Shown here in pieces: positions 2,726 to 25,980 of a stretch of 41,444 nucleotides of DNA. This DNA comes from an uncultured Eubacteriales bacterium (GTDB lineage Bacteria; Bacillota; Clostridia; Oscillospirales; Oscillospiraceae): positions 1 to 41,444 of the forward strand of contig CATJWI010000105.1 of NCBI GenBank assembly GCA_949744075.1, read 5' to 3'. Made by a program: the position numbers and the translations under genes. Each line of letters starts with the position of its first letter. Position 1 is the stretch's first letter. The notes beneath the pieces are model-generated. The model searched no databases and was not told the DNA's origin. It saw only the letters and a list, made by a program, of their open reading frames with translations.

Positions 2726-3801
2726 TGGCCGCCGTCAACGGAAGAAAAATTTCCTTTCCGCGGTACGCGGAGTATAACTGCGCCCTGAAATACATTGCGG
2801 AGCAGGCCCTGGGGGTGAAATACGTGATGCCCCCAGCCCTCACCAAGCGGACCATGGAGTTGGGCACCAAGCACAGCCCCGACTTTGTCTGCACCCCCTT
2901 CAAGACAGTGCTGGGCAGCATGATCGAAGCCCTGGAGGCCGGGGCGGACACCCTTTTGATGACCCACGGCCTGTGCCGGTTGGGGTATTACGGGGAGCTG
3001 TCCGAGCAGATTTTGAAGGACCTGGGCTACCAGTTTGAATTCATCAACCTGTCCGAGTATGACATGAGCAAGAAAAAGGAGTATCTTCGCATCGTCCGGC
3101 GGCTCAATCCCAAGGTAAACCCGGCCCAGTTCCTGGGGGAGTTTATGGAGGGGCTGCGGATGGTGGAGTACCTGGACGAGATCACCGGGGAATACTACCG
3201 CAATTGCGGCTTTGACGCCACCGGGGGAAAGTACCGGCAGGCCTACCAAAACTTCCTTACCGCCATGTATACCGCCCGGAGCCGTACCGATGTGGAGGAG
3301 GGCTACCGCACGGCTAAGACCGCCCTGAGCGCCATTCCCCTGGACAAGCCCCAGCGGCCTCTGCGGGTGGGGGTGGTGGGAGAGTTCTACACCGTCATGG
3401 ACGCCTTCTCCAACCTGGAGCTGGAGCAGCGGCTGGCCGACATGGGGGTGGAGATCCACCGGTGGATGAACGTGACCAACCAATTCCTGCGCTACAACGG
3501 CCAGAAGAACATGCGCGTGAAGATCCGGGACCTGTGCGCCTACGAGATGGGCCCCACCGCCACCGCCAACATCTGGTGGGCCCGGGAGTGCGCCGAGCGG
3601 GGCTTTGACGGCCTGGTCCACATCAAGTCCGCCGGCTGCACCCCGGAGATCGACGTGATGCCCGTGCTCCAAAATATCAGCGCGGACTATAAGATCCCGG
3701 TGCTCTACCTGACCTATGACGTGCAGACCAGCGACGTGGGGCTCATGACCCGGCTGGAAGCGTTTTATGACATGATCGAAATGAGAAAGAAGGTACTGTA
3801 A
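2725..3801 (+). CDS. 2-hydroxyacyl-CoA dehydratase-like protein (COG3581-like)
   Basis: ORF overlaps the preceding stop; ISFPRYAEYNCALKYIAEQALGVKYVMPP and late Cys/DVQTSDVGLMTRLEAFYDMI motif typical of the family. Confidence 0.72.
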   Translation: MAAVNGRKISFPRYAEYNCALKYIAEQALGVKYVMPPALTKRTMELGTKHSPDFVCTPFKTVLGSMIEALEAGADTLLMTHGLCRLGYYGELSEQILKDLGYQFEFINLSEYDMSKKKEYLRIVRRLNPKVNPAQFLGEFMEGLRMVEYLDEITGEYYRNCGFDATGGKYRQAYQNFLTAMYTARSRTDVEEGYRTAKTALSAIPLDKPQRPLRVGVVGEFYTVMDAFSNLELEQRLADMGVEIHRWMNVTNQFLRYNGQKNMRVKIRDLCAYEMGPTATANIWWARECAERGFDGLVHIKSAGCTPEIDVMPVLQNISADYKIPVLYLTYDVQTSDVGLMTRLEAFYDMIEMRKKVL

Positions 3802-3802
3802 C

Positions 3803-4753
3803 GTGGAACATGCGTATTTGGGCGTCGATGTGGGCTCCATCTCCACCAAGGGGGTCATCATCGACAAGGAGAACAATATTCTGGCCAGCCAGTACATCTG
3901 GACCCAGGGAGACCCCATCGGAGCGGTAAAGGAGCTGGTCCGGCTGCTGGAGGGGCAGTTCGACAAGGAACGGTATAAGATCGTGGCCACCGGCACCACC
4001 GGCAGTGCCCGAAAGCTGGTGGGCACCATTCTGGGGGCCACCATGGTAAAGAACGAGATCACCGCCCACGCTGTGGGCACCACCACCTTTTATCCCGACG
4101 TGCGCACCATCCTGGAGATCGGGGGCCAGGACTCCAAGATCATCCTGGTGGAGAACGGGGTGGCGGTGGATTACGCCATGAATACGCTCTGCGCCGCTGG
4201 CACAGGGGCCTTCCTGTCCAGCCAGGCCAAGCGGTTGGGCATCGAGGTGGAGGAGATCGGGGAGTACGCCCTGCGCTCCACCCATCCCACCCAGATCGCC
4301 GCCCGGTGCACCGTCTTCGCCGAGTCCGACTTAGTCCACAAGATCCAGATGGGCCACCCCCGGGAGGATATCATCGCCGGGGTGTGCAACGCCGTGGCCT
4401 CCAATTATCTCAACAACGTGGGCAAGGGCAAGAAGATCCTCTCCCCGGTGGTGTTTCAGGGGGGTGTCAGCAAGAACCAGGGGGTGGTGGCCGCCTTTGA
4501 GCGGACCCTGGGCTGCAAGGTCATTGTGGACCCCAACGGCCATCTGATGGGGGCCTTGGGGGTGGCTATCTTGGCCAAGAAGGGCAGCAAGCGCCAGGAC
4601 TTTGACTTCTCCATCGAGAACCTGGAGTTCCGCACCCGGGAGGCCAGCTGCGACGGATGCTCCAACCGGTGCGAGATCATCTGCGTCTACCGGGGGGAGG
4701 AGCTTATCGACGCCTGGGGTAACCGCTGTGAGCGGGGAGCGCAGGTAAGCTAA
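3803..4753 (+). CDS. BadF/BadG/BcrA/BcrD-type CoA-substrate-specific enzyme activase ATPase
   Basis: YLGVDVGSISTKGVIID, IGGQDSKII, CAAGTGAFL, FQGGVSKNQG ASKHA signatures; C-terminal CDGCSNRCEIIC. Confidence 0.88.
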   Translation: MEHAYLGVDVGSISTKGVIIDKENNILASQYIWTQGDPIGAVKELVRLLEGQFDKERYKIVATGTTGSARKLVGTILGATMVKNEITAHAVGTTTFYPDVRTILEIGGQDSKIILVENGVAVDYAMNTLCAAGTGAFLSSQAKRLGIEVEEIGEYALRSTHPTQIAARCTVFAESDLVHKIQMGHPREDIIAGVCNAVASNYLNNVGKGKKILSPVVFQGGVSKNQGVVAAFERTLGCKVIVDPNGHLMGALGVAILAKKGSKRQDFDFSIENLEFRTREASCDGCSNRCEIICVYRGEELIDAWGNRCERGAQVS

Positions 4754-4794: not shown

Positions 4795-4837
4795 AAAAGG
4801 CCCGGCCCCGGAGTATCCCGGAGCCGGGTCTTTTTTT
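4795..4837 (+). terminator. Rho-independent terminator
   Basis: GGCCCGGCCCCGGAGTATCCCGGAGCCGGGTC followed by TTTTTTT. Confidence 0.85.
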
Positions 4838-5029: not shown

Positions 5030-6124
5030 ATGAAAAAGTTGCTTTCCGGGATCCTTGCAATATCGATGGCCCTGTCCCTGGCCGCCTGCCAGTCCAAGCC
5101 CACGGGCGGACAGGAGCAGCAGGGGGGGCAGACCCAGGCCCCCGTCCAGAGCCAGCAGGCTCCGGAGACCGCCAAGCCCAAGATCATCGTGGCCCTGCCC
5201 GGCATGTTGGGCGACAAGAGCTACAACGACTCCTGCAAGGCCGGCATCGATAGGGCTGTGGCCGACTTTGGCGTAGAGGTCAAGGTGCTGGAGGCCTCCT
5301 CTCCCGCCGACTATGAGCCCAACATCATCGCGGCGGCCACCGGCGGTTACGATCTGGTCATCATTCTGTCCGGCCAGCAGAAGGAGTCGGCCATGAAGGT
5401 CATCCCCGAGTACCCCGACCAGAAGTTCGCCACCATCGACTTCGTCATGGACGGCAACCCCGAGAACGTGTACTCCTCCTTCTTTGCGGTGAACGAGGGC
5501 TCCTTCCTGGCCGGTGCGGCCGCCGCTATGTTCACCAAGAAGACCGAGATCGACGGGGTCAACGAGGACAACATCATCGGCTGGATCGCCGGCAAGGAGA
5601 CCCCGCTGATCAACGACTTCTATGTGGGCTTCGAGCAGGGGGCCAAGTACATCGACCCCGACGTGCAGATCCTGAAGGCCTTTGCGGGCACCTTCACCGA
5701 TCCCCTGAAGGGGAAGGAACTGGCCCTGACCCAGTATGAGCAGGGCGCGGATATCATCATGAACGTGGCTTCCGGCACCGGCATCGGCATCCTGGAGGCC
5801 GCCGCCGAGCAGAAAAAGTTCGCCATCGGCGTGGACCTGAACCAGGACGACCTGCAGCCCGGCTACATCCTGACCTCCATGATCAAGAATGTGGACGCCG
5901 CCGCCTACCTGTTCATCCAGAGCATGGTGGAGGATACCTACCAAGGCGGTACCTCCCTGTTCTTTGACCTGAGCACCGAGGCGGTGTCCCTCACCGACTT
6001 CGCCGTGTTCAAGGAGGCCTGGGGTGACAAGTTCCCCCAGGACGTCGTGGACAAGTGTGCGGAGCTGAAGGAGGAGATCGCCAATGGGAACATCATTGTG
6101 GATGAGTTCCCCGGCGTCCGGTAA
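5030..6124 (+). CDS. BMP family ABC transporter substrate-binding lipoprotein
   Basis: Lipobox LSLAAC; PGMLGDKSYNDSCKAGIDRA and GFEQGAKYIDPDVQI typical of BMP/PnrA-like proteins; followed by matching ATPase and two permeases. Confidence 0.9.
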   Translation: MKKLLSGILAISMALSLAACQSKPTGGQEQQGGQTQAPVQSQQAPETAKPKIIVALPGMLGDKSYNDSCKAGIDRAVADFGVEVKVLEASSPADYEPNIIAAATGGYDLVIILSGQQKESAMKVIPEYPDQKFATIDFVMDGNPENVYSSFFAVNEGSFLAGAAAAMFTKKTEIDGVNEDNIIGWIAGKETPLINDFYVGFEQGAKYIDPDVQILKAFAGTFTDPLKGKELALTQYEQGADIIMNVASGTGIGILEAAAEQKKFAIGVDLNQDDLQPGYILTSMIKNVDAAAYLFIQSMVEDTYQGGTSLFFDLSTEAVSLTDFAVFKEAWGDKFPQDVVDKCAELKEEIANGNIIVDEFPGVR

Positions 6125-6136
6125 TATCTGACGGCA

Positions 6137-6184
6137 TAAAGGGCCCCGTCGATCAGGCGCACTGCCGTCGGCGGGGCCCTTCCC
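6137..6184 (+). terminator. Intercistronic hairpin (no good T-tail; possible mRNA-stabilising/attenuating element)
   Basis: AAGGGCCCCG...CGGGGCCCTT stem between the SBP and ATPase genes. Confidence 0.5.
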
Positions 6185-6205
6185 CTATTGACAGGAGACG
6201 AGGTG

Positions 6206-7726
6206 ATGACGTTGCTTCCATACATCAAATTAGACCACATCGTAAAACAGTTCGGAAGCGTGAAGGCGGTGGACGACTGCTCCATCGAGGTGCGCAAGGG
6301 AGAGATCTTTTCCCTCATCGGGGAGAACGGAGCGGGCAAGTCCACCATGATGAAGCTTCTCTACGGCATCCATCGTCCGGACCAGGGGCTCATCCAGCTG
6401 GACGGGCAGACCCTGGAGGACCTGACGCCTCAAAAAGCCATCGCCTGTGGGATCGGAATGGTGCACCAGGAGTTCATGCTGGTGAAGGAGTTCACCGTAC
6501 TGGAGAACATCATCCTGGGCTTTGAGCCCAAGGGGCCTATGGGGCGGATCGACTTTGCCGCCGCCCGGGAGAAGGTCCAGCGGTACATCGACGACTACAG
6601 CCTGGACGTCCAGCCGGACAAGCTGGTGCAGAACATCTCGGTGGGCGAGGCCCAGCGGGTGGAGATCATCAAGACCCTCTACCGGGGGGCCAACGTGCTC
6701 ATCCTGGACGAACCCACCGCCGTGCTGACCCCGGGAGAGACCAAGCAGTTCTTCGATATCCTGCGCAGCATGCGGGACGACGGGAAGACCATCATCTTCA
6801 TCTCCCACAAACTCCATGAGGTGCTGGAGATCAGCGACCGCATCGGCGTGATGCGCCGGGGGAAATATATGGCCACCCTGGACCGCCCGGAGGCCACGGC
6901 GGAAAAGCTGGTGAACCTCATGGTGGGCCGGAATGTGGAGATGAGCGATCGGCCCTCCCCCTGCCATCCGGGGCCGGTGGTGCTAGAGGTCCAAGACCTG
7001 GAGGTCTTGGGCCAGCGGTGGCTTTCCACCATCAAGAAGGTCTCCTTCCACCTGTGTGCCGGAGAGATCCTTGGGGTGGCCGGAGTGGACGGCAACGGCC
7101 AGTCCGAGCTGGTGGACGCCATCTGCGGCCTGCGGCCCATCCTGGCGGGCTCGGTGAAGCTAACGGGCCGGGAGATGGCGGGAAAGAAGGCCGGCCAGCT
7201 GCGGAAGGCGGGGCTGGCCCACATCCCCGAGGACCGGAACACCCGGGGCCTCAACAAGGAGTTCACCATCAACGAGAATCTGGTGGCCATCCACCTGGAG
7301 GAGGTTTCCCGGGGAGAGCTGCTGGACCGGAAAAAGATCGCCCAGAAGGGCAAGGAGCTCATCGAGAAATACGACATCCGGCCCGCCGACGGAGAGCTGA
7401 AGGCGGGGACCCTGTCCGGCGGCAACGCCCAGAAGATCGTGGTGGCCCGGGAGATCGAGTCCGGGGGCAAGCTGCTCATCGCCGCCCAGCCCACCCGGGG
7501 AGTGGACATCGGCGCCATCGAGTCCATCCGGGGCTACCTGAACCGGGCCAAGGAGCAGGGGGTGGCGGTGCTGCTCATCAGCGCCGACCTGGATGAGATC
7601 ATCGCCCTATCTGACCGGATCATCGTGCTCCACGAGGGGCGCATCTCGGGAGAGCTGCCGGGGGGAGACGTGGACATGGAGCGGCTGGGCCTTTTGATGA
7701 CGGGAGGGAAGAGCGATGAAGGGTAA
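6206..7726 (+). CDS. ABC transporter ATP-binding protein (tandem ATPase, nucleoside/simple sugar type)
   Basis: Walker A GENGAGKST; LDEPTAVLTPGE; second domain LSGGNAQKIVVARE; tandem architecture. Confidence 0.92.
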   Translation: MTLLPYIKLDHIVKQFGSVKAVDDCSIEVRKGEIFSLIGENGAGKSTMMKLLYGIHRPDQGLIQLDGQTLEDLTPQKAIACGIGMVHQEFMLVKEFTVLENIILGFEPKGPMGRIDFAAAREKVQRYIDDYSLDVQPDKLVQNISVGEAQRVEIIKTLYRGANVLILDEPTAVLTPGETKQFFDILRSMRDDGKTIIFISHKLHEVLEISDRIGVMRRGKYMATLDRPEATAEKLVNLMVGRNVEMSDRPSPCHPGPVVLEVQDLEVLGQRWLSTIKKVSFHLCAGEILGVAGVDGNGQSELVDAICGLRPILAGSVKLTGREMAGKKAGQLRKAGLAHIPEDRNTRGLNKEFTINENLVAIHLEEVSRGELLDRKKIAQKGKELIEKYDIRPADGELKAGTLSGGNAQKIVVAREIESGGKLLIAAQPTRGVDIGAIESIRGYLNRAKEQGVAVLLISADLDEIIALSDRIIVLHEGRISGELPGGDVDMERLGLLMTGGKSDEG

Positions 7727-8777
7727 GATCAAGCTGCGGCCCGGCTTCGCGGCGGCTATGCTGTTCCCCTTTGTGTTCGGCGCGGTGCTGATGCTCCTCC
7801 TGGGCTACGACCCGGTGGAGGCGTACCGGGAGCTGTTCAAGGGGGCCTTTGTGGGCAACTTCAACCTGGGCACAACCCTGGAAAAGTTCTGTCCCATCTT
7901 TTTGACGGCCCTGGCCTACTGCGTTACCAGCAAGGTGAAGTATTTCAATATGGGGGTGGAGGGCTGCTTCTACCTGGGGGCCCTGTTCTCGGCGGGAGCG
8001 GGCTTTTTGATCCAGGGCCTGCCCTGGTACATCCACATCCCCATCTGCTTTTTGTGCGGTACCTTGGTGGGGGCCGTCTGGGCCGCCATTCCGGGGGCCC
8101 TGCGGGCCTACCTTAATGTCAATGAGCTGTGTGCGGCCCTGCTGATGAACTATGTGGCCATCCACTTCGCCAACTTCATGATCGCCGGGCCCTGGTCGGC
8201 CAAAGGGGCCTCCTCCCAGACGGCGCCCATTGAGAAGTCGGCGGAGCTGTTGCGGATCATGAAGCCCAGCCGGGCCAATGTGGGGCTGTTCATGGCCCTC
8301 TTCCTCTACGCCGCCATCTTCTGGATGTTCCGGCGGACCAAGCTGGGCTATCGGCTCAACGCCACAGGCACCAACTCCTATTTTACCGACTATGTGGGGG
8401 TGGACGCCAAGCGGATGGTGCTGCTGGCCACCATCCTCAGCGGGGCCATCGGGGGCTTCGCCGGGTCCATCCAGACCATGGGTGTGTACGGCACCATCAT
8501 CGACGGCTTCTCCAACAACACGGCCTTCGACGGGATGCTGGCCTCCCTCATTGCCAACAACAGCTTTGCCCAGCTGCCCATCTACTCCTTCCTCATCGCG
8601 GCGCTGAAATCGGGCGCCTTGGGCATGGAGCGGTTCACGGGAGTGCCCAAGGCCCTCATCGACACCCTCATCCCCATCCTGATCCTGCTGCTGAATATGG
8701 AAGGACTGTTTGATTTCAAGCACTTGCGAAAGAGACGGAAAAAGAAAATAGCTGAGATAGGAAAGGAGGGGGCATGA
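7716..8777 (+). CDS. ABC transporter permease (nucleoside/simple sugar type)
   Basis: Hydrophobic, KVKYFNMGVEGCFYLGA and RLNATGTNSYFTDYVGVDAKR permease motifs; overlaps the ATPase gene. Confidence 0.88.
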   Translation: MKGKIKLRPGFAAAMLFPFVFGAVLMLLLGYDPVEAYRELFKGAFVGNFNLGTTLEKFCPIFLTALAYCVTSKVKYFNMGVEGCFYLGALFSAGAGFLIQGLPWYIHIPICFLCGTLVGAVWAAIPGALRAYLNVNELCAALLMNYVAIHFANFMIAGPWSAKGASSQTAPIEKSAELLRIMKPSRANVGLFMALFLYAAIFWMFRRTKLGYRLNATGTNSYFTDYVGVDAKRMVLLATILSGAIGGFAGSIQTMGVYGTIIDGFSNNTAFDGMLASLIANNSFAQLPIYSFLIAALKSGALGMERFTGVPKALIDTLIPILILLLNMEGLFDFKHLRKRRKKKIAEIGKEGA

Positions 8778-9733
8778 TGCAGCTTTCTGATGTGTTGTCC
8801 TATACCCTGGTCCACGCCACCCTTCGCTCCACTGCCCCCATCCTGCTGGCCACCATCGCGGCGGTCATCAGTAAGCAGGCCAATATCATCAACATGGGCA
8901 TTGAGGGAATCATGCTCTTCGGCGCCTACACCGGCTACGTGGTGGGCTATTTCACCCGGAGCTGGGTGGCGGGGGTGCTGGCCAGCGTGGCGGTGGGCAC
9001 CCTCTTGGGGATGCTGGTGGGCTGCGCCCACCTGAAGTTCAAGGCCCACATTCTGGTGGTGGGCTTTGCGGTGAATATGCTGGCCCTGGCCATGACCCGG
9101 TTCATGCTCCAGCAGATCTTCGGGGTGTCGGGGGCCCTGGTGCTGCCAGACCCGGTGTCCCTGCCCACCATCCACATTGCGGCCCTGGAGTCCAGTCCGG
9201 TGCTGTCCAGCCTCTTCAGCGACTACTGCTTCATGGAGCCTATAGCTATCCTGCTGGTGATCGCCCTGTGGCTGGTGCTCTACAAGACCTCGGTGGGGCT
9301 CCACCTGCGCAGCGTGGGGCTCAACGAGCCCTCGGCCATGACGGCGGGCATCGACATCGGCCGGAACAAGTTCATGGCTATCACCCTGTCAGGGCTCTTC
9401 GCGGGGCTGGCGGGGGCCTACCTGTCCATGGGCTATTCCACCATGTTCGTGGAGAACATGACCAACGGCCGGGGGTATATGGCCCTGGCGGCCATGAACT
9501 TTGGCAGCGGCAACCCCCTCTTTGCCATGGGCGGGGCGCTGATCTTCGGCTTTATGGACTCCATCGGGGCCCGGCTCCAGTCCTTCGGGTTCCCCTCCCA
9601 GTTCGTGCTGATGATCCCCTATGTGACAACGGTAGTGGTACTGACCATCGCCATGGTCAGCGCCCGGAGAAAGGAGAAAGCAATGATCTTGAAGCAGTAC
9701 CGGGACGGGGAAAAGACCGTCCAGACGTCATGA
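8774..9733 (+). CDS. ABC transporter permease (nucleoside/simple sugar type)
   Basis: QANIINMGIEGIMLFGAY and LRSVGLNEPSAMTAGID motifs; ATGA overlap with preceding permease. Confidence 0.88.
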   Translation: MMQLSDVLSYTLVHATLRSTAPILLATIAAVISKQANIINMGIEGIMLFGAYTGYVVGYFTRSWVAGVLASVAVGTLLGMLVGCAHLKFKAHILVVGFAVNMLALAMTRFMLQQIFGVSGALVLPDPVSLPTIHIAALESSPVLSSLFSDYCFMEPIAILLVIALWLVLYKTSVGLHLRSVGLNEPSAMTAGIDIGRNKFMAITLSGLFAGLAGAYLSMGYSTMFVENMTNGRGYMALAAMNFGSGNPLFAMGGALIFGFMDSIGARLQSFGFPSQFVLMIPYVTTVVVLTIAMVSARRKEKAMILKQYRDGEKTVQTS

Positions 9734-10818
9734 GCGGCGCCGGAGAGGTACGGGTGGGGATCATCGGCTGTGGCGGTATCGCCCAGGCCAAGCACATCCC
9801 AAACCTGAAGAAGAAGGAGGGGGCGGTGATCGCAGCCCTGTCCGACGTGCGGGGGAAAGAGTACCTGGAGCGGGTGTGCGGAGAGCTGGGGGTCACCGGG
9901 GCCAAACTGTGCACCGACTACTGGGAGCTATTGGCCGACCCCACCATTGAGGTGGTCCACATCTGCACCCCCAACGCCTCCCACGCCCAGCTCACCATTG
10001 AGGCCCTGGAGGCGGGGAAGCACGTGATGTGCGAAAAGCCCATGGCCACTGATTTGGAAGAGGCCAAGGCCATGGTAGAGGCCCAGCGGCGCAGCGGGAA
10101 AAAGCTGACCATCTGCGCCAACAACCGCTTCACCCCCGCCATGTGGTACCTGAAGGGCCGGTGCGCCCGGGGGGAGCTGGGAGAGATCTACTTTGCCAAG
10201 GCCCACTGCGTCCGGCGCAGGGGGGTGCCCACCTGGGGAGAGTTCCTGGACAGGGAAAAGCAGGGGGGCGGTCCGGTGCTGGATCTGGGCACCCACGCGG
10301 TGGACCTGGCCCTCTGGATGATGGACAACTACAAGCCCAAGAAGGTGACGGGCAAGACTTTCTATAAGCTGGGGGCTCAGGGGAGTCCCGCCAACCCCTA
10401 CGGGGATTGGGACCCGGCGCGGTTCACCGTGGAGGACAGCGGCTTTGCCATGATCGAGATGGAGAACGGGGCGGTGATCTGGCTGGAGACCAGTTGGGCC
10501 CTGAACACCCGGGATGAGCGGCCGGTGAGCGTCACCCTGTGCGGGACCCAGGCGGGGGCCGACGTGACCGAGGGCCTCACCATCAACACCGAGCGGGACG
10601 GGCGGCTGGTGGACGAGAAGATCGTCCTGGAGCCCCGGACCATCCCCTTCTACGAGCCCGAGCAGGTCTACGGGCCTCAGCTGGAGATCTCCCAGTGGAT
10701 CGACGCGGTGCGGGAGGACAAGGACCCGGTGGTGCGGCCGGAGCAGATGTACACTGTCCAGCGGGTCATCCGGGCGGTCTACGAGTCCAGTGAGGCAGGA
10801 GAGAGCATTTCCATATAA
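9730..10818 (+). CDS. Gfo/Idh/MocA family oxidoreductase
   Basis: VGIIGCGGIAQAKHIPNL Rossmann motif; VMCEKPMATD; ATG at 9730 overlaps permease stop. Confidence 0.92.
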   Translation: MSGAGEVRVGIIGCGGIAQAKHIPNLKKKEGAVIAALSDVRGKEYLERVCGELGVTGAKLCTDYWELLADPTIEVVHICTPNASHAQLTIEALEAGKHVMCEKPMATDLEEAKAMVEAQRRSGKKLTICANNRFTPAMWYLKGRCARGELGEIYFAKAHCVRRRGVPTWGEFLDREKQGGGPVLDLGTHAVDLALWMMDNYKPKKVTGKTFYKLGAQGSPANPYGDWDPARFTVEDSGFAMIEMENGAVIWLETSWALNTRDERPVSVTLCGTQAGADVTEGLTINTERDGRLVDEKIVLEPRTIPFYEPEQVYGPQLEISQWIDAVREDKDPVVRPEQMYTVQRVIRAVYESSEAGESISI

Positions 10819-10836
10819 AACGGGGAGGGACGGGCG

Positions 10837-11658
10837 TTGAAGATCGGGATACTGGGAGCGGGCCCCTTGGCCCGGAGCTGTATGGAGGCCGTCAAGGTCC
10901 ATCCGGGCTGGGAGATGGCGGAGCGGGACGAAAGACCGGACTGGATGGTCCTGTGCGGACCGGAGGAGCTGACGGCGGCGGAGCTGTCCCAGTTGGCCCG
11001 GGAGGCAGGGGGTGTGCTCTGCGTCTCCACCGCCGCCTGGGGGGAGGAGAGCGGGGCCGTCCTGGGGGAGCTCATGGCCCAGAAGCGGGCCCGGGCCCTT
11101 CGCCCCGAGTGCTTCCGGGAGCATGTGGCCGGGGTGCGCAACGCCCTGGAGAGCCAGTGGCTGGGGACGGTGGGCGCCGCCCACCTGACCCGCAGGCGGC
11201 CCTTGGCCCTGGTGGGGGGCTGCCGGGATGCCCTGAGCCAGTGCGGGATGGAGGAGGCCTCAGTGCTCCTGTCCCTGCTGGGGAGGCCGGAGCGGCTATT
11301 CTGCGTGGTGGCCGACCTGGGGGAGGGGGAGCAGGTCTCCCTCACCCTGCAGATGCCCAACGGGGCGGTGGCCAATATCCAGGGCATCCAGAGAGTGGGG
11401 GAGGAGGCCGGCTTCCAGTATGAATACGCCGGCCAGTTTGGCCTGGCGGACTATGACAGCCGCCAGGGGGCCCTGCGCCTCAGCCGCAGAGGCACCCTGC
11501 TGGAGGAGTGGCCCGTGGAGGCCAGCGCCAAGGCCCTGGAGGAGGCGCTGACCTGCTCAGGGGACAACGGGTTGGAGGCGCTGGTGCATCTCCAGCTGTG
11601 CGCCCGGCGCTCTGCCGGGGAGCGGCGGGTGGTGGAATGGAAGGAGGGAGCGCTGTGA
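10837..11658 (+). CDS. Degenerate Gfo/Idh/MocA-like protein (putative pseudoenzyme)
   Basis: TTG start; KIGILGAGPLARSCMEAV Rossmann-like N-terminus; short (273 aa); no EKP motif; within oxidoreductase operon. Confidence 0.65.
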   Translation: MKIGILGAGPLARSCMEAVKVHPGWEMAERDERPDWMVLCGPEELTAAELSQLAREAGGVLCVSTAAWGEESGAVLGELMAQKRARALRPECFREHVAGVRNALESQWLGTVGAAHLTRRRPLALVGGCRDALSQCGMEEASVLLSLLGRPERLFCVVADLGEGEQVSLTLQMPNGAVANIQGIQRVGEEAGFQYEYAGQFGLADYDSRQGALRLSRRGTLLEEWPVEASAKALEEALTCSGDNGLEALVHLQLCARRSAGERRVVEWKEGAL

Positions 11659-12641
11659 AACAGATCCGAGTGGGGATGGCGGGCCTGGCCCACATCCACG
11701 GTGAGGGCTACCTCCAATTTCTGCGCCAGGACCCCCGGGTCCAGCTCACGGGCATCTGGGACGAGCGCCCAGAGCGGGCGGAGGGGACGGCAAAAAAATT
11801 TGGCATGCAGCTGTGCAAGACCCTGAAGGAGCTGACGGACCAGGGCCTGGACCTGCTGCTGGTGTGTGCCGAGAACACCAAGCACCTGACCCCGGTGCTG
11901 GCCGGGGCCCAGGCGGGGACGGCGGTGCTGTGCGAAAAGCCCATCGGCACCGACCTAAGGGAGATCGACGAGATGATCCGGGTCTGTGAGGAGAAGGGCG
12001 TGAAGCTTATGACTGCCTTCCCTAACCGCTATGCCCCCGACATTCTCCGGGCCAAGGAGCTGCTGGAGCGGGGGGGGATCGGGGAATTGCGGGCGGTGAA
12101 GGCCACTAACAAAGGGAAGATGCCTGGGGGCTTTTTCGTGGAGCCAGAGCTGTCCGGAGGCGGGTCGCTGATGGACCACGTGGTCCACGTGGCCGACCTG
12201 ATGAACTGGTTCATGGGCCAGGCCCCCCAGTGGGTGTGCGCCTTCGGGGGCACGGTGCTCCACCCCGAGCTGGTGGTGGACGACGTGTCCATGGTCCACT
12301 TCGGCTACGCCAACGGGGTGACGGTGACCCTGGATTCCAGCTGGTCCCGGAACGAGAAGTTTCCCAGCGACCGGAACCTGACCCTGGAGCTCATGGGCAC
12401 CCAGGGGACCCTCTGGGTGGACATCGTCACCGACCACAGCCGGGTCCTCTCCGACCGGGCGGACCGGGAGCTCTACCTGGACTTCGGCCCCAACAAGGTC
12501 AAGCGGATGCTGGAGGACGCGGTGAACTGCGTTTGTGAGGACCGGCCCTTCCCGGTGACGGGGGAGGACGGCAAGCGGGCGTCCATGGTGGCGCTGGCGG
12601 CCATCGCCTCGGCCAGAGAGGGACAGCCGGTGATTTTGTAG
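11655..12641 (+). CDS. Gfo/Idh/MocA family oxidoreductase
   Basis: GTG start overlapping previous stop; VGMAGLAHIHGEGYL; VLCEKPIGTD. Confidence 0.9.
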   Translation: MKQIRVGMAGLAHIHGEGYLQFLRQDPRVQLTGIWDERPERAEGTAKKFGMQLCKTLKELTDQGLDLLLVCAENTKHLTPVLAGAQAGTAVLCEKPIGTDLREIDEMIRVCEEKGVKLMTAFPNRYAPDILRAKELLERGGIGELRAVKATNKGKMPGGFFVEPELSGGGSLMDHVVHVADLMNWFMGQAPQWVCAFGGTVLHPELVVDDVSMVHFGYANGVTVTLDSSWSRNEKFPSDRNLTLELMGTQGTLWVDIVTDHSRVLSDRADRELYLDFGPNKVKRMLEDAVNCVCEDRPFPVTGEDGKRASMVALAAIASAREGQPVIL

Positions 12642-12657
12642 AAGAGAGGAAGACAAG

Positions 12658-13734
12658 ATGAGACGATTGGATTCCCATGTACACATCTCCCTCAACGCCG
12701 AGTCCTCCACCCTGGCGGACGGGGAGCTGCTGTGCCGGCTGCTGGATGAGGTGGAGCAGCTCAATATTCTGAATATCGTGCTGGAGAAGCCGGAGAACCT
12801 GCCCCGGAACGCCATCTCCCTGCTGCTGAAGCTGCGCTTTCCCGGGCGGGTCTACAGCTTTGGGGGCATCGTGATGCCCCGGGGCCGGGGCCGGGAGGAG
12901 GACTATGTCCGGCAGGTGGAGCTGCTGGGCCGGGCGGGCTTTGACGGGGTGAAGCTCTTCGGCAAGCCCAGCGTCCGGGCCAGCCGCCCCATCCCCTTCG
13001 ACGACCCGGTGTACGACGGGATGTACGGCACCCTTCAAAATAGCGGCACGCCAGTGAATTTCCACATCGGAGACCCACCGGAGTTCTGGGACCGGGACAG
13101 GGTCCCGGCCTTTGCCTGGAAAAATGGCTGGTATTACGGGGAGGGGGAGTACCCCTCCATGGAGACCCTTTTGGGGGAGATCGTCCACGTGCTGGAGAAG
13201 TTCCCCCGGCTGAAGCTGCTCGTCCCCCACATGATGTTCCTCTCCCAGGACCTGGAGCGGCTGAGGGGACTGCTGGAGCGCTTTCCCACCCTGCTGACGG
13301 ATATCACCCCGGGGCGGGAGCTCTACTTCCAGCTGTCTGAGAACCGGGAGAAGGCCCGGGCATTTTTCCTGCGCTACCACGGGCGTATCCTCTTCGGCAC
13401 GGACAACGCGGTATGCGTCCAGCGGAAGGACAGCCTGGAGCAGTGCCGGGAGACCCTGAGCGCGGTGGAGCGCTTTCTGGAGACAGAAGACCGCTTCCAA
13501 GCCTGGGGCGGAGAGCTGGCGGGCCTAGGTCTTCCGGGGGAGGTCCTGGGGGACCTTTATGGGGACAACTTCCGCCGCTGGGTGGGAGAAGAGCCCGCCC
13601 GGCCCCAGGGGGGCAGCGCGATGGAATACTGTGGGTGGCTGCGGGAGTTGGCGGCCCGGCAGGGCTGCGCCCCGGCGGAGCGGGAACTGACGCTGGTGAT
13701 GGAAAAGATGGCTGAATTGGCAGGAACGGAGTGA
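12658..13734 (+). CDS. Amidohydrolase family (TIM-barrel metal-dependent hydrolase)
   Basis: RRLDSHVHIS metal-binding motif; GFDGVKLFGKP; HIGDPPEFWDRD; ILFGTDNAV. Confidence 0.82.
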   Translation: MRRLDSHVHISLNAESSTLADGELLCRLLDEVEQLNILNIVLEKPENLPRNAISLLLKLRFPGRVYSFGGIVMPRGRGREEDYVRQVELLGRAGFDGVKLFGKPSVRASRPIPFDDPVYDGMYGTLQNSGTPVNFHIGDPPEFWDRDRVPAFAWKNGWYYGEGEYPSMETLLGEIVHVLEKFPRLKLLVPHMMFLSQDLERLRGLLERFPTLLTDITPGRELYFQLSENREKARAFFLRYHGRILFGTDNAVCVQRKDSLEQCRETLSAVERFLETEDRFQAWGGELAGLGLPGEVLGDLYGDNFRRWVGEEPARPQGGSAMEYCGWLRELAARQGCAPAERELTLVMEKMAELAGTE

Positions 13735-14651
13735 GTGGGATGAAGGAATATCTGGCCTTTGACGTGGGGGGCAGCTACATCAAATACGGGGTGGTACAGG
13801 GGGACGGGACCATCCTGTTCCGAAAGAAGAGCCGGACCAACAGCCACCTGGGGAGCGAATATCTGGTGGGGGAGCTGTGCCGCATCGCTGACGAGACCAT
13901 GGAGGGTTTTGCCCTCAGCGGTATCGCTGTCTCCACCACCGGAGTGGTGGACGTGGAGCGGGGGAGCATCCAGACAGAGATCTGCAGCTGGATCAACGGC
14001 TACAACGGCACCCAGCTGCGGGAGCTGCTCCAAAAGCGCACCGGGCTGGCCGTGGAGATGGAGAACGACGTGAACTGCATGGCCCTGGGGGAGCAGTGGC
14101 TGGGGGCGGCCAAGGGCTACCGGAACGTGGTGTGCATGGCCATCGGAACGGGGATCGGCGGGGCGCTGCTGGTGGACGGAGAGCTCTACCGGGGCAGCCG
14201 GAACATGGCCATGGAGGTGGGGCGCATGCCCGTGGGCCGCAGCCACCTGGAGGACCTGGCCTCTGTCCGGGCTCTGATATATGAGTACGCCAAGCTGGCC
14301 AACATCCCCTCCCAGGACGTGGACGGCCTCCTGGTGGCCCAGAGGGAGCGGGAGGGTGACCGGTACGCCGCAGAGGCCTTTGAGCAGATGTGCTATTATC
14401 TGGCCCAGGGGATCGCCATGCTGACCTGCGCCCTCACCCCCGATGTGCTGATCCTGGGCGGGGCCATCACCAGCGACCGGGAGCTGCTGGATGGGCGGCT
14501 GCGGAGATATTTGAAGGAGATGCTGGATCGGGCCCTTTGGGAGAGCCTGGACATCCAATATGCCAAGCTGGGCAAGGACGTGAACCTGGTGGGGGCGGTA
14601 CGCCACCACCAGCTCATGAGCCGCCGCAGGCGGGAGCAGGCCGTAGGCTGA
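13731..14651 (+). CDS. ROK family protein (kinase-like, lacking CXCGXXGC zinc motif)
   Basis: AFDVGGSYIKYGVV, ENDVNCMALGE, AIGTGIGGALL motifs; zinc motif absent. Confidence 0.85.
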   Translation: MSGMKEYLAFDVGGSYIKYGVVQGDGTILFRKKSRTNSHLGSEYLVGELCRIADETMEGFALSGIAVSTTGVVDVERGSIQTEICSWINGYNGTQLRELLQKRTGLAVEMENDVNCMALGEQWLGAAKGYRNVVCMAIGTGIGGALLVDGELYRGSRNMAMEVGRMPVGRSHLEDLASVRALIYEYAKLANIPSQDVDGLLVAQREREGDRYAAEAFEQMCYYLAQGIAMLTCALTPDVLILGGAITSDRELLDGRLRRYLKEMLDRALWESLDIQYAKLGKDVNLVGAVRHHQLMSRRRREQAVG

Positions 14652-14688
14652 GCGCAGATGGAGAAATAAAATATATCAGACAGGAGAG

Positions 14689-15921
14689 ATGAACGGCATG
14701 GAACAAAAAAAGCGCATCCGGCTGGGATGCATTGGTGGCGGCATGATCATGAACGTGGCCCATGTGCCCGCCTATGTGGAGCTGCGGGAAGAAATGATCG
14801 TGACCGGGATATACTGTCCCCAGAAGGAGACGGCGGAGGAGACACGGGAAAATTATCTCTCCCAGATGGCCCGAGCCGGGGCGGAGGTGGATTGGGAGGT
14901 GCGGGTGTGCGCCAGCTTTGAGGAGCTTTTGGAGCGGGTGGACGCCATCGATATCGGCACCCCCACCCGCTGGCACGCCTGGTATGCCGAGCGGGCCCTG
15001 GCGGCCGGGGTCCACGCCATGTCGGAGAAGCCCATCGCCCGCAACTATTGGGAGGCAAAGCACCTGGAGGAGGCGGCCCAGACCTCCGGGGCTATCTACC
15101 AGCTCAACGACGACAACGTCTTTCTGCCCCGGTACCAGCACATCAAGAACGTGCTGGCCTCAGGGGCCATCGGGGAGGTCACCCAGCTGCTGCTGACCCG
15201 TGGAAGTCCCTCCTCGGACCGGAACGACTGGTTTTTCGACCCAGTGTCCGGCGGCGGGGCCATTTTGGACTACGGCTCCCATGCGGTAATGGGGGCCTGG
15301 TTTCTGCTGGGCTTTGACAAGCGGCCCCGGCGGGTCCGGGCCATCGACATCCGGGTGAAGGACCGGACCCGGTTCATCCGGGGGCGGCTGCGGGACATCG
15401 AGACGGACGATGACGCCCATTTCAAGGTTTTCTTTGAGGACCCCGGGAACGGAGACATGATCCCGGCAGTGCTAGAGGCCACTTGGTCCTGGCCCGACTT
15501 TGGAGAAAATTCCAGCGATACCCACGGCCACATCCGGGTGGACGGTACCGAGGGCTGGCTTACCAGCCAGTTTGACGAGAACGACCAGGAGTACTTGGTG
15601 GTCCACCGCTTCGCGGCGGGGGAGAGAAGGATCCCCATCCAAAGCTACCGCTCGGAGACCCTGTCCTTCCGGGATGAGATCTGGAACTTTATCCGCAGCA
15701 TCCAGCAGGGCGAGCAGTCCATGATCGACGCCCGGGTGGGCACGGTAACCGCCCAGATCATCACCGGGGCCCAGATATCCCAGCTCCAGGGCCGCAGGAT
15801 GGTGGAGCTGGAGGAGGTAGGCCCCTATTGTCAGGGCTTTGACGACGGCTCCGGGGACCTATTGAAAATGGGAGACAGTATTGCGCTGGAACTGACCCGC
15901 CCCTACCGCCTGGAGGGGTGA
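14689..15921 (+). CDS. Gfo/Idh/MocA family oxidoreductase
   Basis: LGCIGGGMIMNVAHVPAY; AMSEKPIARN. Confidence 0.9.
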   Translation: MNGMEQKKRIRLGCIGGGMIMNVAHVPAYVELREEMIVTGIYCPQKETAEETRENYLSQMARAGAEVDWEVRVCASFEELLERVDAIDIGTPTRWHAWYAERALAAGVHAMSEKPIARNYWEAKHLEEAAQTSGAIYQLNDDNVFLPRYQHIKNVLASGAIGEVTQLLLTRGSPSSDRNDWFFDPVSGGGAILDYGSHAVMGAWFLLGFDKRPRRVRAIDIRVKDRTRFIRGRLRDIETDDDAHFKVFFEDPGNGDMIPAVLEATWSWPDFGENSSDTHGHIRVDGTEGWLTSQFDENDQEYLVVHRFAAGERRIPIQSYRSETLSFRDEIWNFIRSIQQGEQSMIDARVGTVTAQIITGAQISQLQGRRMVELEEVGPYCQGFDDGSGDLLKMGDSIALELTRPYRLEG

Positions 15922-15949
15922 TGGAGCCGGCAGGGAGGACACGGGCTTT

Positions 15950-16816
15950 ATGACCAACGGACATGATCAGGACATCCGCCCCACCATATGCCGTATAGAG
16001 CCGGGCGGCGTTCAGGCCGGCAGTTCCGGCGAGGCCCTTATGTTGCTTTTTGGGCTGGAGGGCCGTTGCCAGATCGACCTGGACAGCGGCTGCTACCCCT
16101 GCGGGCATGGGGATGTGGTCCTGCTCCCGCCCAAGACGGTCTACCGCCTGGGGGCGGGAGAGGAACTGGGGAGGGCGGCGGTATGGAGCCTGGCCCCGGA
16201 GCAGCTGGTGCGCGCCCAGCACCGGGGCTGTCAGGCGGCGGAGCAGATCCTGGAGCTGGCGGACCGGGGTATGACTCTGCCGCTGAGCGAAAAGGAGCAG
16301 GAACGGATCAGACTGCTCCTGGACGGCGGAGCGGAGGACCGGCACGGGAGCTATTACCGGATGAACGCCATGGAGCTGGTCCTTATCGAGCTGTGTCGGG
16401 TGATCGAGGGCCGGGAGGACGTTCAGGAGCGGATGAGCCGTAGCGAGACAGAGCGGTCCAGGCTCATCAAGAACGTGATCACCTATGTCAATGAGCATTA
16501 CCGGGAGGAGATCCGACTGGACAGCATTGCCCGGCAGTTTTGGGTGAGCCCCTCCTATCTCAGCAGGCAGTTTAAGAGCAAGGTGGGGGTGAGCATCACC
16601 CAGTTCATCACCGAACGGCGGCTCCAGGCGGCCCAGCGGCTGCTGATGACCAGCGACCTGGACATCGCCGAGATCGCCGACCAATTGGGTTTTAAAAGCG
16701 CCAATTACTTTTATACGGTGTTTAAAAAGAACCAGGGGATATCACCCAGGGAATTCCGAAAGAACAGCCGCATCAGCGATAAGCTGCTGGACCATCATTG
16801 GGAAATGGGGGGATAA
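15950..16816 (+). CDS. AraC family transcriptional regulator
   Basis: C-terminal double HTH: ARQFWVSPSYLSRQFKSKVGVSITQFITERRLQAAQRLLMTSDLDIAEIADQLGFKSANYFYTVFKKNQGISPREFRK. Confidence 0.93.
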   Translation: MTNGHDQDIRPTICRIEPGGVQAGSSGEALMLLFGLEGRCQIDLDSGCYPCGHGDVVLLPPKTVYRLGAGEELGRAAVWSLAPEQLVRAQHRGCQAAEQILELADRGMTLPLSEKEQERIRLLLDGGAEDRHGSYYRMNAMELVLIELCRVIEGREDVQERMSRSETERSRLIKNVITYVNEHYREEIRLDSIARQFWVSPSYLSRQFKSKVGVSITQFITERRLQAAQRLLMTSDLDIAEIADQLGFKSANYFYTVFKKNQGISPREFRKNSRISDKLLDHHWEMGG

Positions 16817-16819
16817 GCA

Positions 16820-17776
16820 TTGCAGGGAAATGGATACTATTTGGGAGCCAACTGCGGCCGGGACTGTATCCGGCTGGGTGTAGTCCGGACAGACGGCGTC
16901 CTGCGGGACATGGCCGACTACCCCCTGGGGAGCCGGTCGGGGGGCGCGGTGCTCCATACTCTGCGGGAGGCCCTGCTCCACTACCGGGCGGAGCGGCCCA
17001 AGCTGAAGGTGGAGGCGGTGGGCATCGGCCTGCCGGGCTATATCAACCCCTCCGGCGGCATCTGGATGCGCAGCCTGGACCTGGGGGTGGATACGGCCCT
17101 GCCTGTGTCTGCGCCTCTGCGAAGCCTGTTGGGGGTCCCGGTATACATCGACAATGATATCAACGCAGCCACCCTGGCGGAGCTGTATTTCGGCATGGGC
17201 CGGCTGTGCGGGAATTTCCTCTATCTGGGCCTGGGAGAGGGCGTGGCCATGGGCATCGTGGCCGACGGAAAGCTTATCCGGGGCATTGCCAACTGTGCCG
17301 GAGAGATCGGCCACATGTCGGTGGAGACCGGGGGCAGGCAGTGCGAGTGCGGTTACCAGGGCTGCCTGGAGGGCATCGCCTCGGTGGGGGCCCTGTTCCA
17401 GGAGGTGCGGAATCTGCTGCCCTCCTACCCCACCTCTCCTTTGGCGGAGCTGGAGAAGGAGGGAAAGCTGACGGTGGAGGCGGTGCTGGACTATGCCGGG
17501 GAGGGGGAGACCCTGGCCCGTATCGTGGGAGAACGGATAGTCCAGGCTGTGGGCCGGGGCGTGGTGAACAGCATGAATTTGCTCAACCCTGGTTACATCA
17601 TTCTCTCCGGTCCCCTGAGCAAGAGCGACTGGCTGGTAGAGCAGGTGAAGCGGTTCGTTTACACCAACGGCTTTGTCTCCTCCATCGGCACCCTGCGGGA
17701 CATCTCCCGGTCGGTGCTGGAGGCGGAGTATATCGACGTGCTGGGGGCGGCCTGCCTGTGCATGCCGGCGCAGTAA
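16820..17776 (+). CDS. ROK family protein (zinc motif intact, phosphate-binding loops divergent)
   Basis: TTG start; CAGEIGHMSVETGGRQCECGYQGCLEGIAS; YIDNDINAATLAE; N-terminal GANCGRDCIRLG replaces the usual DIGGT loop. Confidence 0.85.
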   Translation: MQGNGYYLGANCGRDCIRLGVVRTDGVLRDMADYPLGSRSGGAVLHTLREALLHYRAERPKLKVEAVGIGLPGYINPSGGIWMRSLDLGVDTALPVSAPLRSLLGVPVYIDNDINAATLAELYFGMGRLCGNFLYLGLGEGVAMGIVADGKLIRGIANCAGEIGHMSVETGGRQCECGYQGCLEGIASVGALFQEVRNLLPSYPTSPLAELEKEGKLTVEAVLDYAGEGETLARIVGERIVQAVGRGVVNSMNLLNPGYIILSGPLSKSDWLVEQVKRFVYTNGFVSSIGTLRDISRSVLEAEYIDVLGAACLCMPAQ

Positions 17777-17787
17777 ACAGCGCAAAC

Positions 17788-17827
17788 AAAAAAGCCCGGC
17801 CCCGGAACTTCCGGGGCCGGGCTTTTA
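17788..17827. terminator. Bidirectional Rho-independent terminator
   Basis: AAAAAAGCCCGGCCCCGG AACTT CCGGGGCCGGGCTTTT between convergent genes. Confidence 0.85.
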
Positions 17828-17853: not shown

Positions 17854-20800
17854 TTAAACCTCCTCGTCCTCCTTCTTGCGCTTGTGGGTCAGGGAGACCA
17901 AGCCCAGGCCGGAGGCCAGGGCGGCCGCCAGCCAGCCATAGAGACCGTCGCCGGTCTGCGGCACGTCGGCCAGGGGCACGTCCTCGTCCAGCAACTCCTC
18001 CTCGTTGTGGGGGATGTCAGCCAGAGGCACGTCGTCATCCAGCAGTTCCTCCTCGTCGCCGCCACCACCGCCGCCGTTCCCGCCGCTATCAGAGGGTGTG
18101 GGAGTGGGAGTGGAGGTAGAGGGCGTGGTCTCGGAGGGGGTGGGGGTGGGAGTACCGGTGGAGTTGGAGTAGGTGTTGGTGATGGTAAAGGAGGTGCCGC
18201 TGCCGCTAACGCTGACAGTGTACCCCTCGGGCACGCTCACCTCTTCCACGCTCCAGCTGCCGTTCTCGTCCAGACCCTGCCAGGTGTGGGACCAGCCGTT
18301 GCGCTCATTGAGCGTTACGGTGCCGGAGGGAGTGGAGCCGTTCATCAGCCGGACTTGGATGCTGGTGGGACGGACGCTCTCGTCGTCGCCCCGCCAGACC
18401 TTCTGAACGCTGACGTTCACAGTGTTCACGTAGTAGGAGTAGTTCCAGTAGTTGTCGAAGGACACCTCGGTGTACTGGTCCTTCTCCAGCAGCTCGCCCT
18501 TGTCGTTGACAGGGGTGGTGCGGTAGCTGCCCTCGCCGGCCTCCACTTCGGTGACGGTATAGGTGGTGCCCACAGGCAGGTTGCCCAGCTTCAGGAGCTG
18601 ACCGTGCTTCAAAGTGACCTCAAAGAGGGCGGCCTGAGTGTCCACAGGCTCAGAGGGCTCGGCGCTCTCCACAGGGGCCGGGTCGGCCTCCTCGGCGGGA
18701 GGCTCGTTGAGGTCGGGCTCGGGGGCGGGCTCCACATAACGCTGGAGCTCCACGAACTCCCGGGTGTAGTCGGTGACAGTCTCGCCGGTGGTCTCGTCCA
18801 CACGCTCACTGGGGGTGAAGATGGTGGCCCAGTAGGACTCCGCCAGTTCCACATAGGCGGCGGGGGCCTTCAGCTCTACCAGGAAGTGCCACTCCCGGTC
18901 CTTCTCGCCCCGGTTGCCCGAGACGGTTTTGCTCAGCTGGAGCCCGGTGGTGTGGCGGGTGTAGTAGTTGGTGGCTGTAACCTCCACCACCTGGCCCTGG
19001 GTATCGATGGTGACCACACGTTGGTTGGAGCCATCGTCCCAGCTCATGCCCTTGTAGTCGTAGTTGTCCAGCTCCCGGTTGCCCACCTCCACGATGGTGT
19101 AGGTGCCGAAGCGCAGGCCATCGGCGTAGACAGGCTTGCCGTCAGCGGGAACGGAGAGCCGGGCCACGGGCTCCGCGGTGGTATCGGTGCCGGCGTAGAT
19201 GTTGAAGTTGAAGGCCTTGCTGGTCAGGTCCTCGGTGATCGCATCACCGGTGACGCCGTCCAGATCCGGGACCTTGGCCACGCCGATGCTGCCCCGGATG
19301 ATCTCGTTGGTGATGGTGATCTCACCCGCGGTGCTGCTGTCGGTGGTGCTGGCTTTCCAGGACCAGGTGTTCTCACCCAGAATGTCGCCCTTGTTCACAG
19401 GCTCCACGGACAGGAGCTTATCCTTGTGGTCGGCGTCCTTGACGAACTCCAGGATCCACTCGTGGCCCTTGTTGGTCTCGTCGTCCCGGTAGCCGTCAGC
19501 CACCTTGGTCTCGGTGAGGCTGTACTTGCCGGGAGTCAGGCCGCTGATGGTCAGCTCGCCGTCGGTGGTGGAGTAGGTCTCAGACGTATCGCTGCCTTCC
19601 TTCTTCAGGGTGAAGGTAACGCCGGTGATGGGGGCCTTGGTCTCGGCGTCGATTTTGTGGATGGAGAAGGAGGCGGTGCCCAGCTCGTCGTAGCTGCGCC
19701 AGTTGTTGGTCAGGGTGACCGAGCTGCCGGCGTTTACCAGAGTGGTGGTGGGCTCACTGACCACCCAGCCGCCGATGATCTCATAATTGCCGTCCTGGGC
19801 CAGCTTGTCACTGCGGACCCGGATGATGCCCTGGGTCCGGTCGGTGTAGTCCAGGGTCCAGGTGGCGTCGGCGGGAACGGCGATGAGGTTCTCCTCCACT
19901 TGGTAGCTCCAGGCGGCCAGACCGTCGCCCTCATACTGGGGCAGGCTGTTCCAGGTATAGCGCCAGCCGTTGCCGCTGTTGAGCTCCACAGTCCGGTCAA
20001 TGCCGTCGGGGAGGCTGTCGGGCCCGCCCACCAGGGTCACGGTGATGGGCTGGCGGAACTCGTTGGGGGTCCCGGTCCAATCCTTGGTCACGGTGAGGCT
20101 GGTGTATTTGGGCTGATAGTAGTGGTTCTTCACGGTGACGCCGTTGCTGCCCTCGGTGATAGAGGTAGGGGCGTCCCCGGTGCCCGTCTTCACCACGCCG
20201 GTGAAGGTGTAGGTGCCATTGGCCGGATTATCAAAGGTCTCGGTCACCGTATAGGTGGTGCCGGTGGGGATACCGGAGATGGTTTTGCTATCCCGATCCT
20301 TCATGCCCTCGAAGACGTACAGGCCGTTTTCAGTATACTGGGTGGGATCGGCAGGGGCCACTGCCTCGCCGGAGCCCAGCTTCACGGTGATGGTGAAGCT
20401 ATCTGCCTGGGAATTGGGGGCCACGCTGGTGGTGCTGTCGTAGTCCACCAGCTTGCCCACGGTGAGGCTGCCGTTCTTCCGGGTGTTGGTGAAGGCGGCA
20501 GTGTTATTGCCGTTGGCCACGATGGTCCCGGTCTTGGTGTCCTCAGCGGCGGTGTAATTGCCGTTGGAGGTGTCCTCTTTCACAGTGTAGCCGAAGCCTA
20601 CGGGCAGGCCCTCAATGGTCTTGCTGCCGCCGGCTCTCAGCACCACGGAGCCCACGCCGTCCTTAAAGGCGATACCGCTGTAGGTGCCGTCCTTCAGACC
20701 GGGGATGGTGACGGTGAAGGTGAACTCGTCATTGGCCTCCGCGGCGGTGGTGTTGCCGGTCACCGCCTTGGAGAGGGTGAGCTTATCGCTGTTCCGGGTG

Positions 20801-25248: not shown

Positions 25249-25309
25249 CCTTTCATATGGTAAATTTTTATATGATAACAGAGATGCACCCAACCCCTGG
25301 GCGAGGCGC

Positions 25310-25760: not shown

Positions 25761-25907
25761 ATGAAGCGCATTAAGACCCTGGAGACCCGGAACCTCTGCG
25801 ACAGCGCGAAGACCGGTGGCTGCGGCGAGTGCCAGACCTCTTGCCAGTCCGCTTGCAAGACCAGCTGCGGCATTGCCAACCAGCAGTGCGAGAGCGTCCG
25901 CAAGTAA
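25761..25907 (+). CDS. SCIFF-family ranthipeptide precursor (seven-Cys variant)
   Basis: MKRIKTLETRNLCDSAKTGGCGECQTSCQSACKTSCGIANQQCESVRK; canonical GCGECQxSCQSACKTSC core; RBS AGAGGAGG; adjacent radical SAM maturase. Confidence 0.95.
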   Translation: MKRIKTLETRNLCDSAKTGGCGECQTSCQSACKTSCGIANQQCESVRK

Positions 25908-25920
25908 GGAAATGTCTCTG

Positions 25921-25948
25921 AAAATGCCGCCGTTTCGGCGGCATTTTT
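25921..25948 (+). terminator. Hairpin between SCIFF and maturase genes (attenuator-like)
   Basis: AAAATGCCGCCGTTTCGGCGGCATTTTT. Confidence 0.75.
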
Positions 25949-25980
25949 GCTGTAACGCCCACATAGAAAGGGAAGATACT

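Follow-up and report, generated by a model that had tools for sequence, protein, structure and literature searches.

The locus described here raises the question of which compound is taken up, and by what chemistry it is broken down, by an operon that joins a BMP-type importer to several oxidoreductases, an amidohydrolase and two sugar kinases. It lies in a window of 41,444 nucleotides (the whole stretch of DNA that was analysed), which is one contig of a fragmented, 78% complete metagenome-assembled genome (MAG) of 2.0 Mb; genome-wide checks of this MAG were performed as family searches. The operon is a rare 12-gene combination of a nucleoside-type importer and an enzyme of the DgpA family, which initiates plant glycoside degradation by oxidation of the sugar, and the occurrence of these two in one operon points to the import of an unusual glycoside or nucleoside-like compound that is split oxidation-first. 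The putative substrate would be a nucleoside-like glycoside, in which a flat aglycone, either heterocyclic or aromatic, is N-, O- or C-linked to a sugar. That such a compound is imported and then cleaved oxidation-first is the reading that we favor, tentatively and at somewhat less than an even chance.

Open reading frame calls and Pfam scans identified 12 co-oriented genes on the + strand (Table 1). Five of the 11 gene junctions overlap (by 11, 4, 4, 4, and 4 bp) and the genes are otherwise at most 63 bp apart, in agreement with the earlier note, which had counted at least 12 same-strand genes with many overlapping starts and stops. Pfam matches above the cut-off were obtained for 11 of the 12 genes, with GfoX as the exception: a Bmp substrate-binding protein (SBP), an ABC ATPase, two BPD_transp_2 permeases, three full Gfo/Idh/MocA proteins, an Amidohydro_2 protein, two ROK proteins, and one AraC regulator. 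The same inventory had been drawn up in that note, and is refined here by the tentative addition of GfoX, a short protein that would be the fourth Gfo-like one. The start of GfoA was corrected to the ATG at 9730, which forms an ATGA overlap, and that of GfoB probably to the GTG at 11655. Scans of the window for Rfam families and tRNA genes gave no match.

Table 1. Positions in the window of the genes and terminator-like stems of the operon at 5030-17776, with the evidence for each assignment.
Feature	Position	Strand	Evidence or remark
Terminator-like stem, upstream of operon	4801-4828		12-pair stem, T-rich tail on - strand; consensus match only
BMP/PnrA-type substrate-binding lipoprotein (SBP)	5030-6124	+	PF02608, E 3.9e-62; nucleoside pocket residues
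ABC transporter ATPase, two ABC domains	6188-7726	+	PF00005, two stretches; start may be ATG 6206
Permease 1	7716-8777	+	PF02653, E 9.6e-32
Permease 2 (PER2)	8774-9733	+	PF02653, E 2.1e-32
GfoA, predicted DgpA-family glycoside 3-oxidoreductase	9730-10818	+	phmmer vs PDB 7XR9, 9M3D
GfoX, short degenerate Gfo-like protein, 273 aa (tentative)	10837-11658	+	Weak match to in-house Gfo HMM
GfoB, Gfo/Idh/MocA oxidoreductase	11655-12641	+	PF01408 and PF22725; EKP and D..H motif
Amidohydro_2 metal-dependent TIM-barrel enzyme	12658-13734	+	PF04909, E 1.5e-12
ROK1 sugar kinase, no HTH, no Zn-Cys motif	13731-14651	+	PF00480, E 4.5e-43
GfoC, divergent Gfo/Idh/MocA oxidoreductase, 410 aa	14689-15921	+	PF01408, E 2.7e-17
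AraC-family regulator	15950-16816	+	HTH_18, E 7e-24
ROK2 sugar kinase, CxCGxxGCxE motif	16820-17776	+	PF00480, E 2.3e-44; motif read from sequence
Long palindromic terminator-like stem, operon end	17790-17826		17-pair stem

The remainder of the window contains several other gene sets. Upstream of the operon (1796-4753) are a DUF2229 protein, a DUF2229/HGD-D-like protein, and a BadF/BcrAD ATPase, which form a split set resembling 2-hydroxyacyl-CoA dehydratase activators. What looks like a ribonuclease toxin/immunity pair is encoded at 184-1472, where a small protein that weakly matches Phage_Mu_F and ribonuclease-like Pfam families is followed by a Barstar-family protein. Convergent with the operon on the - strand (17854-25293) is a gene for a cell-wall anchored protein of 2479 aa, in which domains are repeated and the C-terminus resembles a sorting signal. 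A radical-SAM SPASM-type protein encoded at 25816-27366, whose translation contains CxxxCxxC and a Cys-rich C-terminus, resembles peptide maturases.

According to its Pfam matches the importer consists of a Bmp SBP, a tandem-domain ATPase, and two BPD_transp_2 permeases, as in the PnrA/BMP nucleoside importers. The 12 pocket residues of BmpA with thymidine (PMC13325309) were used as the reference for its binding site, and their numbering was checked, all twelve matching at one offset. Eight of them are kept in the SBP, namely Asp24, Asn28, Asp98, Phe151, Phe176, Val224, Asp225, and Lys242 (D62, N66, D137, F197, F222, V268, D269, and K286 in SBP numbering). A ninth, Phe27, is changed to Tyr65, and the other changes are Asp19 to Pro, Ile147 to Leu, and Ala200 to Val. 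The Asp/Asp/Lys anchors (D137, D269, K286) are therefore among the kept residues, and the aromatic stack combines the kept F222 with Y65.

Within a set of 391 Clostridia genomes, relatives of the SBP at E <= 1e-60 were found in only two others, at 56% and 41% identity, and each of these two genomes carries the whole importer. At one of these loci (L211) an IU_nuc_hydro nucleoside hydrolase and a PfkB kinase lie alongside, and at the other (L213) a PNP_UDP_1 phosphorylase and a PfkB kinase; the ATPase of the operon scored 585 bits against that of L211. Since both relatives are found in nucleoside operons, nucleosides appear to be the substrates of this importer lineage, and the importer studied here is predicted to be of the nucleoside type. 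In the operon, oxidoreductases, an amidohydrolase, and ROK kinases appear to stand in for the usual nucleoside-cleaving enzymes: no match to the nucleoside phosphorylase, nucleoside hydrolase, or glycoside hydrolase families was obtained by Pfam among the 12 genes, as had already been noticed for canonical phosphorylases and glycoside hydrolases. NCBIfam names of a "B6 transporter" for the importer were family-level matches far below the cut-off and were not taken as its function. The importer operon of L211 (6932-15658) also encodes an M20 peptidase-family protein and a GATase1_like protein beside the nucleoside hydrolase and PfkB.

The first enzyme gene behind the importer, gfoA, gave by far the strongest match in the operon to a characterized enzyme. 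A phmmer search with GfoA retrieved DgpA (PDB 7XR9; 364 bits, E 6e-108; 47.9% identity over 349 aa) and DgpA1 (9M3D; 354 bits), and the best PDB entry other than DgpA reached 99 bits. The catalytic residues K99 (the EKP lysine) and D181 and H185 (DxGTH) are kept (numbering from 9742). DgpA is an NAD enzyme that oxidizes the glucose C3 of C- and O-glycosides and whose bound NAD is regenerated by 3-oxo-glucose (PMC11239390), and the aryl C-glycoside route proceeds by oxidation, beta-elimination, hydration, and reduction (PMC13273386). By this sequence relationship GfoA is assigned to the DgpA family and is expected to catalyze the same first reaction, oxidation of a glycoside at C3. The assignment supports the oxidation-first keto-sugar chemistry that the earlier note had proposed, and makes the C-glycosides suggested there as ligands an apt choice, since they are a substrate class of DgpA.

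DgpA-like genes are common, being found in 67 of the 390 other genomes of the Clostridia set at E <= 1e-80 (best identity 55%). Among 40 DgpA-like neighborhoods, none of which contained the BMP importer or the amidohydrolase, an AP_endonuc_2 TIM barrel (the DgpC fold) was encoded within 4 kb in 21, and about half of the DgpA-like genes stand without such a partner. No AP_endonuc_2 match was found in the window, and the MAG contains one PF01261 (AP_endonuc_2) protein on another contig. The beta subunit DgpB (PF19906, CGDB) gave no match at E <= 1, and PF06439 (3keto-disac_hyd) was not found, in the 78% complete MAG; at this level of completeness DgpBC or another lyase may be missing from the assembly and not from the organism. 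In two related Clostridia genomes (L089, 462-3626; L090, 1707-4871) a DgpA-like gene, a second Gfo gene, and an AP_endonuc_2 gene are arranged in tandem behind an AraC-type gene.

These results bear on the alternative that the operon serves a DgpA-type pathway for C- or O-glycosides of plant polyphenols (flavonoids or xanthones). In that case DgpBC would be encoded in the fifth of the genome that was not assembled, and the importer would have shifted from nucleosides to aryl glycosides. Both the family of GfoA and the incompleteness of the MAG would fit, and dgpA genes need not adjoin dgpBC, a Catenibacillus species having DgpA-like proteins without DgpBC (PMC11170127). However, the SBP retains the polar anchors of the nucleoside pocket and its second stacking Phe, PF19906 was not found in the MAG, and a BMP importer was present in none of the 40 DgpA-like neighborhoods. 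We consider a polyphenol-glycoside pathway unlikely, although it retains an appreciable chance.

The enzyme that could take the place of the missing lyase is the Amidohydro_2 protein. A 15-row family alignment has H9, H136, H191, and D249 in every row and H7 in nearly all, consistent with an HxH...H...H...D metal site. No PDB sequence match at E <= 0.1 and no NCBIfam match were obtained. An AlphaFold2 (AF2) model (pLDDT 86) was compared using Foldseek, and its matches include the LigJ hydratase, the LigY C-C hydrolase, and ACMSD at 11-17% identity; on this predicted structure the best fold matches fall in the clan of hydratases, C-C hydrolases, and decarboxylases and not among lactonases. For the search for relatives a six-sequence alignment was used (a single sequence found nothing and the alignment of 15 was too diverse), and 236 relatives were identified in a scan of 84,980 species. 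The best 80 of the 236 come from Clostridia, Chloroflexota, Spirochaetes, Planctomycetes, and several archaeal lineages; relatives at seven archaeal loci (Bathyarchaeota, Lokiarchaeota, Brockarchaeota, and others) are 30-36% identical to the protein of the operon. By sequence, the protein is thus placed in an uncharacterized Amidohydro_2 family of bacteria and archaea.

The genomic context of this family was analyzed at 90 distinct loci, with duplicate genomes removed and loci treated as independent. A ROK gene lies within 4 kb at 13 of them and an MFS_2 sugar transporter gene at 17, compared with none of either in about equal flanking DNA. ROK-linked loci include many of Anaerolineaceae and other Chloroflexota, and also of Lachnospiraceae, Clostridiaceae, and other Clostridia. 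These neighbors support a role related to sugars, without specifying a reaction. A link to GH4, nucleoside hydrolases, and Gfo was considered and dropped, because these genes, like PfkB, showed no enrichment over flanking DNA after the duplicate genomes had been removed. At two loci (L048, 5476-10635; L053, 736-10627) relatives of the amidohydrolase are clustered with altronate dehydratase-type and mannitol-dehydrogenase-type genes, and in L048 also with GH4; there the family might serve a hexuronate pathway.

The opening of a lactone had been one of the roles suggested for the amidohydrolase, and a corresponding pathway, in which a Gfo enzyme oxidizes the anomeric carbon and Amidohydro_2 opens the resulting lactone, as in the fucose and rhamnose lactone pathways, has to be weighed. 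Some Amidohydro_2 proteins are sugar lactonases, and the L048 relative adjoins altronate dehydratase, mannitol-dehydrogenase-family, and GH4 genes. The fold matches to LigJ, LigY, and ACMSD point elsewhere, and the family's neighbors in other genomes are sugar kinases and transporters; moreover, the close match of GfoA is a C3 oxidase and not an aldose 1-dehydrogenase, and neither an acid dehydratase nor a KDG aldolase is encoded in the operon. The typical substrates of ROK kinases are free sugars and not acids, and the nearest PDB sequences of ROK1 are N-acetylmannosamine kinase, glucokinase, and beta-glucoside kinase. Lactone opening is accordingly not borne out and is regarded as quite improbable.

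The EKP motif is present in GfoA, GfoB, and GfoC, the three proteins in which it had been reported, and GfoB and GfoC are similar to many Gfo enzymes but close to none of them. GfoX begins in a Rossmann-like manner but lacks the EKP lysine as well as the catalytic Asp and His; with no Pfam match and an AF2 model of unusable quality (pLDDT 40), it is placed in the Gfo family tentatively. Given several Gfo paralogs, the operon could instead degrade a cyclitol, amino-cyclitol, or anhydrosugar, with GfoB and GfoC as the main dehydrogenases and GfoA as an accessory. The best NCBIfam matches of GfoC, to IolG (62 bits; cut-off 355) and levoglucosan dehydrogenase (59 bits), might be read in this way but are both far below the cut-offs; in agreement with the earlier note no other iol-type gene occurs in the operon, its best-matched enzyme (GfoA) resembles a glycoside oxidase, and the importer is predicted to be nucleoside-type. 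We give this explanation only a slight chance. Among the substrate classes named before, the nucleoside- or glycoside-like ones are upheld by the SBP pocket and the importer's relatives, and the cyclitol reading is weak and gains no positive support.

The operon appears to be sporadic, since GfoC has no relatives at E <= 1e-30 in the other 390 genomes of the Clostridia set and the amidohydrolase has no close ones: a single relative (36%) was found among 15 congeners, and 300 genomes of the family contained none that was closer. Plasmid records contained only distant Gfo and amidohydrolase matches. The conservation of the gene neighborhood, which had been put forward as a check, was not observed, the importer, a DgpA-like oxidase, and this type of amidohydrolase occurring together in no other locus examined. 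This, and the fragmented state of the MAG, could suggest an assembly chimera of a nucleoside importer and an unrelated carbohydrate operon, but PER2 and GfoA, which form the importer-enzyme junction, overlap by 4 bp (ATGA), and GC and GC3 are uniform across all operon genes, so that a chimera is very improbable.

For the favored reading, in which the substrate is a nucleoside-like glycoside, the following sequence of reactions is proposed. The intact compound would be taken up by the PnrA-type ABC importer, and GfoA, like DgpA, would oxidize the C3 hydroxyl of its sugar with bound NAD. The aglycone would then leave by beta-elimination, either spontaneously or assisted by the amidohydrolase, which would occupy the place of the AP_endonuc_2 TIM barrel found in many other loci. 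The enediolone would be hydrated, possibly by the same enzyme, the 3-keto sugar reduced by GfoA, GfoB, or GfoC, and the free sugar phosphorylated by a ROK kinase, with AraC controlling the operon. The amidohydrolase step and the roles of GfoB, GfoC, and GfoX are inferred. The amidohydrolase is a candidate eliminase or hydratase because the AP_endonuc_2 partner is missing, it has a TIM-barrel metal site, and its fold falls in the hydratase clan; as its family is not enriched beside Gfo, GH4, or nucleoside hydrolase genes, a part in 3-keto chemistry is only suggested. The incompleteness of the MAG also counts against the proposed pathway, as does the finding that about half of the DgpA-like genes have no TIM-barrel partner anyway. 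Furthermore, DgpA is known to act on glucopyranosides, but the SBP retains a pocket known to bind ribofuranosides and deoxyribofuranosides. A more specific version, a new cleavage of nucleoside-like glycosides in which C3 oxidation is followed by elimination and hydration by Amidohydro_2 in place of the DgpBC/AP_endonuc_2 lyase, is decidedly unlikely; if it were true, the members of a broad, uncharacterized bacterial and archaeal amidohydrolase family would be 3-keto-sugar lyases or hydratases of a new class.

Oxidation-first glycoside cleavage by gut bacteria is a recent discovery, and its substrate range is poorly mapped. The operon ties this chemistry to a nucleoside-type importer, with nucleoside-like glucosides, C-nucleosides, and aryl glycosides as candidate substrates. 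It also supplies a tractable member of an Amidohydro_2 family that extends from Clostridia and Chloroflexota to archaea and is related to sugars by its genomic context.

Four known systems were compared with the operon. The 3-keto-O-glycoside lyase route of Bacteroides thetaiotaomicron (mentioned in PMC13273386) follows the same logic of oxidation, elimination, hydration, and reduction, but no PF06439 protein was detected in the MAG studied here. With the DgpA/DgpBC C-glycoside deglycosylation of Dorea strain PUE, and DfgE/DfgAB of Eubacterium cellulosolvens, the operon shares a DgpA-family enzyme with the K/D/H residues kept; instead of an AP_endonuc_2 TIM barrel and DgpB it is accompanied by a BMP importer, Amidohydro_2, and two ROK kinases. 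The ACMSD/LigJ/LigY clan resembles the amidohydrolase in its TIM barrel and metal-site pattern, whereas identity is low and the family is tied to sugar metabolism by its genomic context. Finally, the PnrA/BMP nucleoside ABC importers (TmpC, BmpA/BmpD, Lbp) differ in the pocket residues Phe27 (Tyr here) and Asp19 (Pro here), and the operon, unlike L211 and L213, encodes no nucleoside hydrolase or phosphorylase; yet the component set is the same, and eight of the 12 pocket residues are kept and a ninth is changed conservatively.
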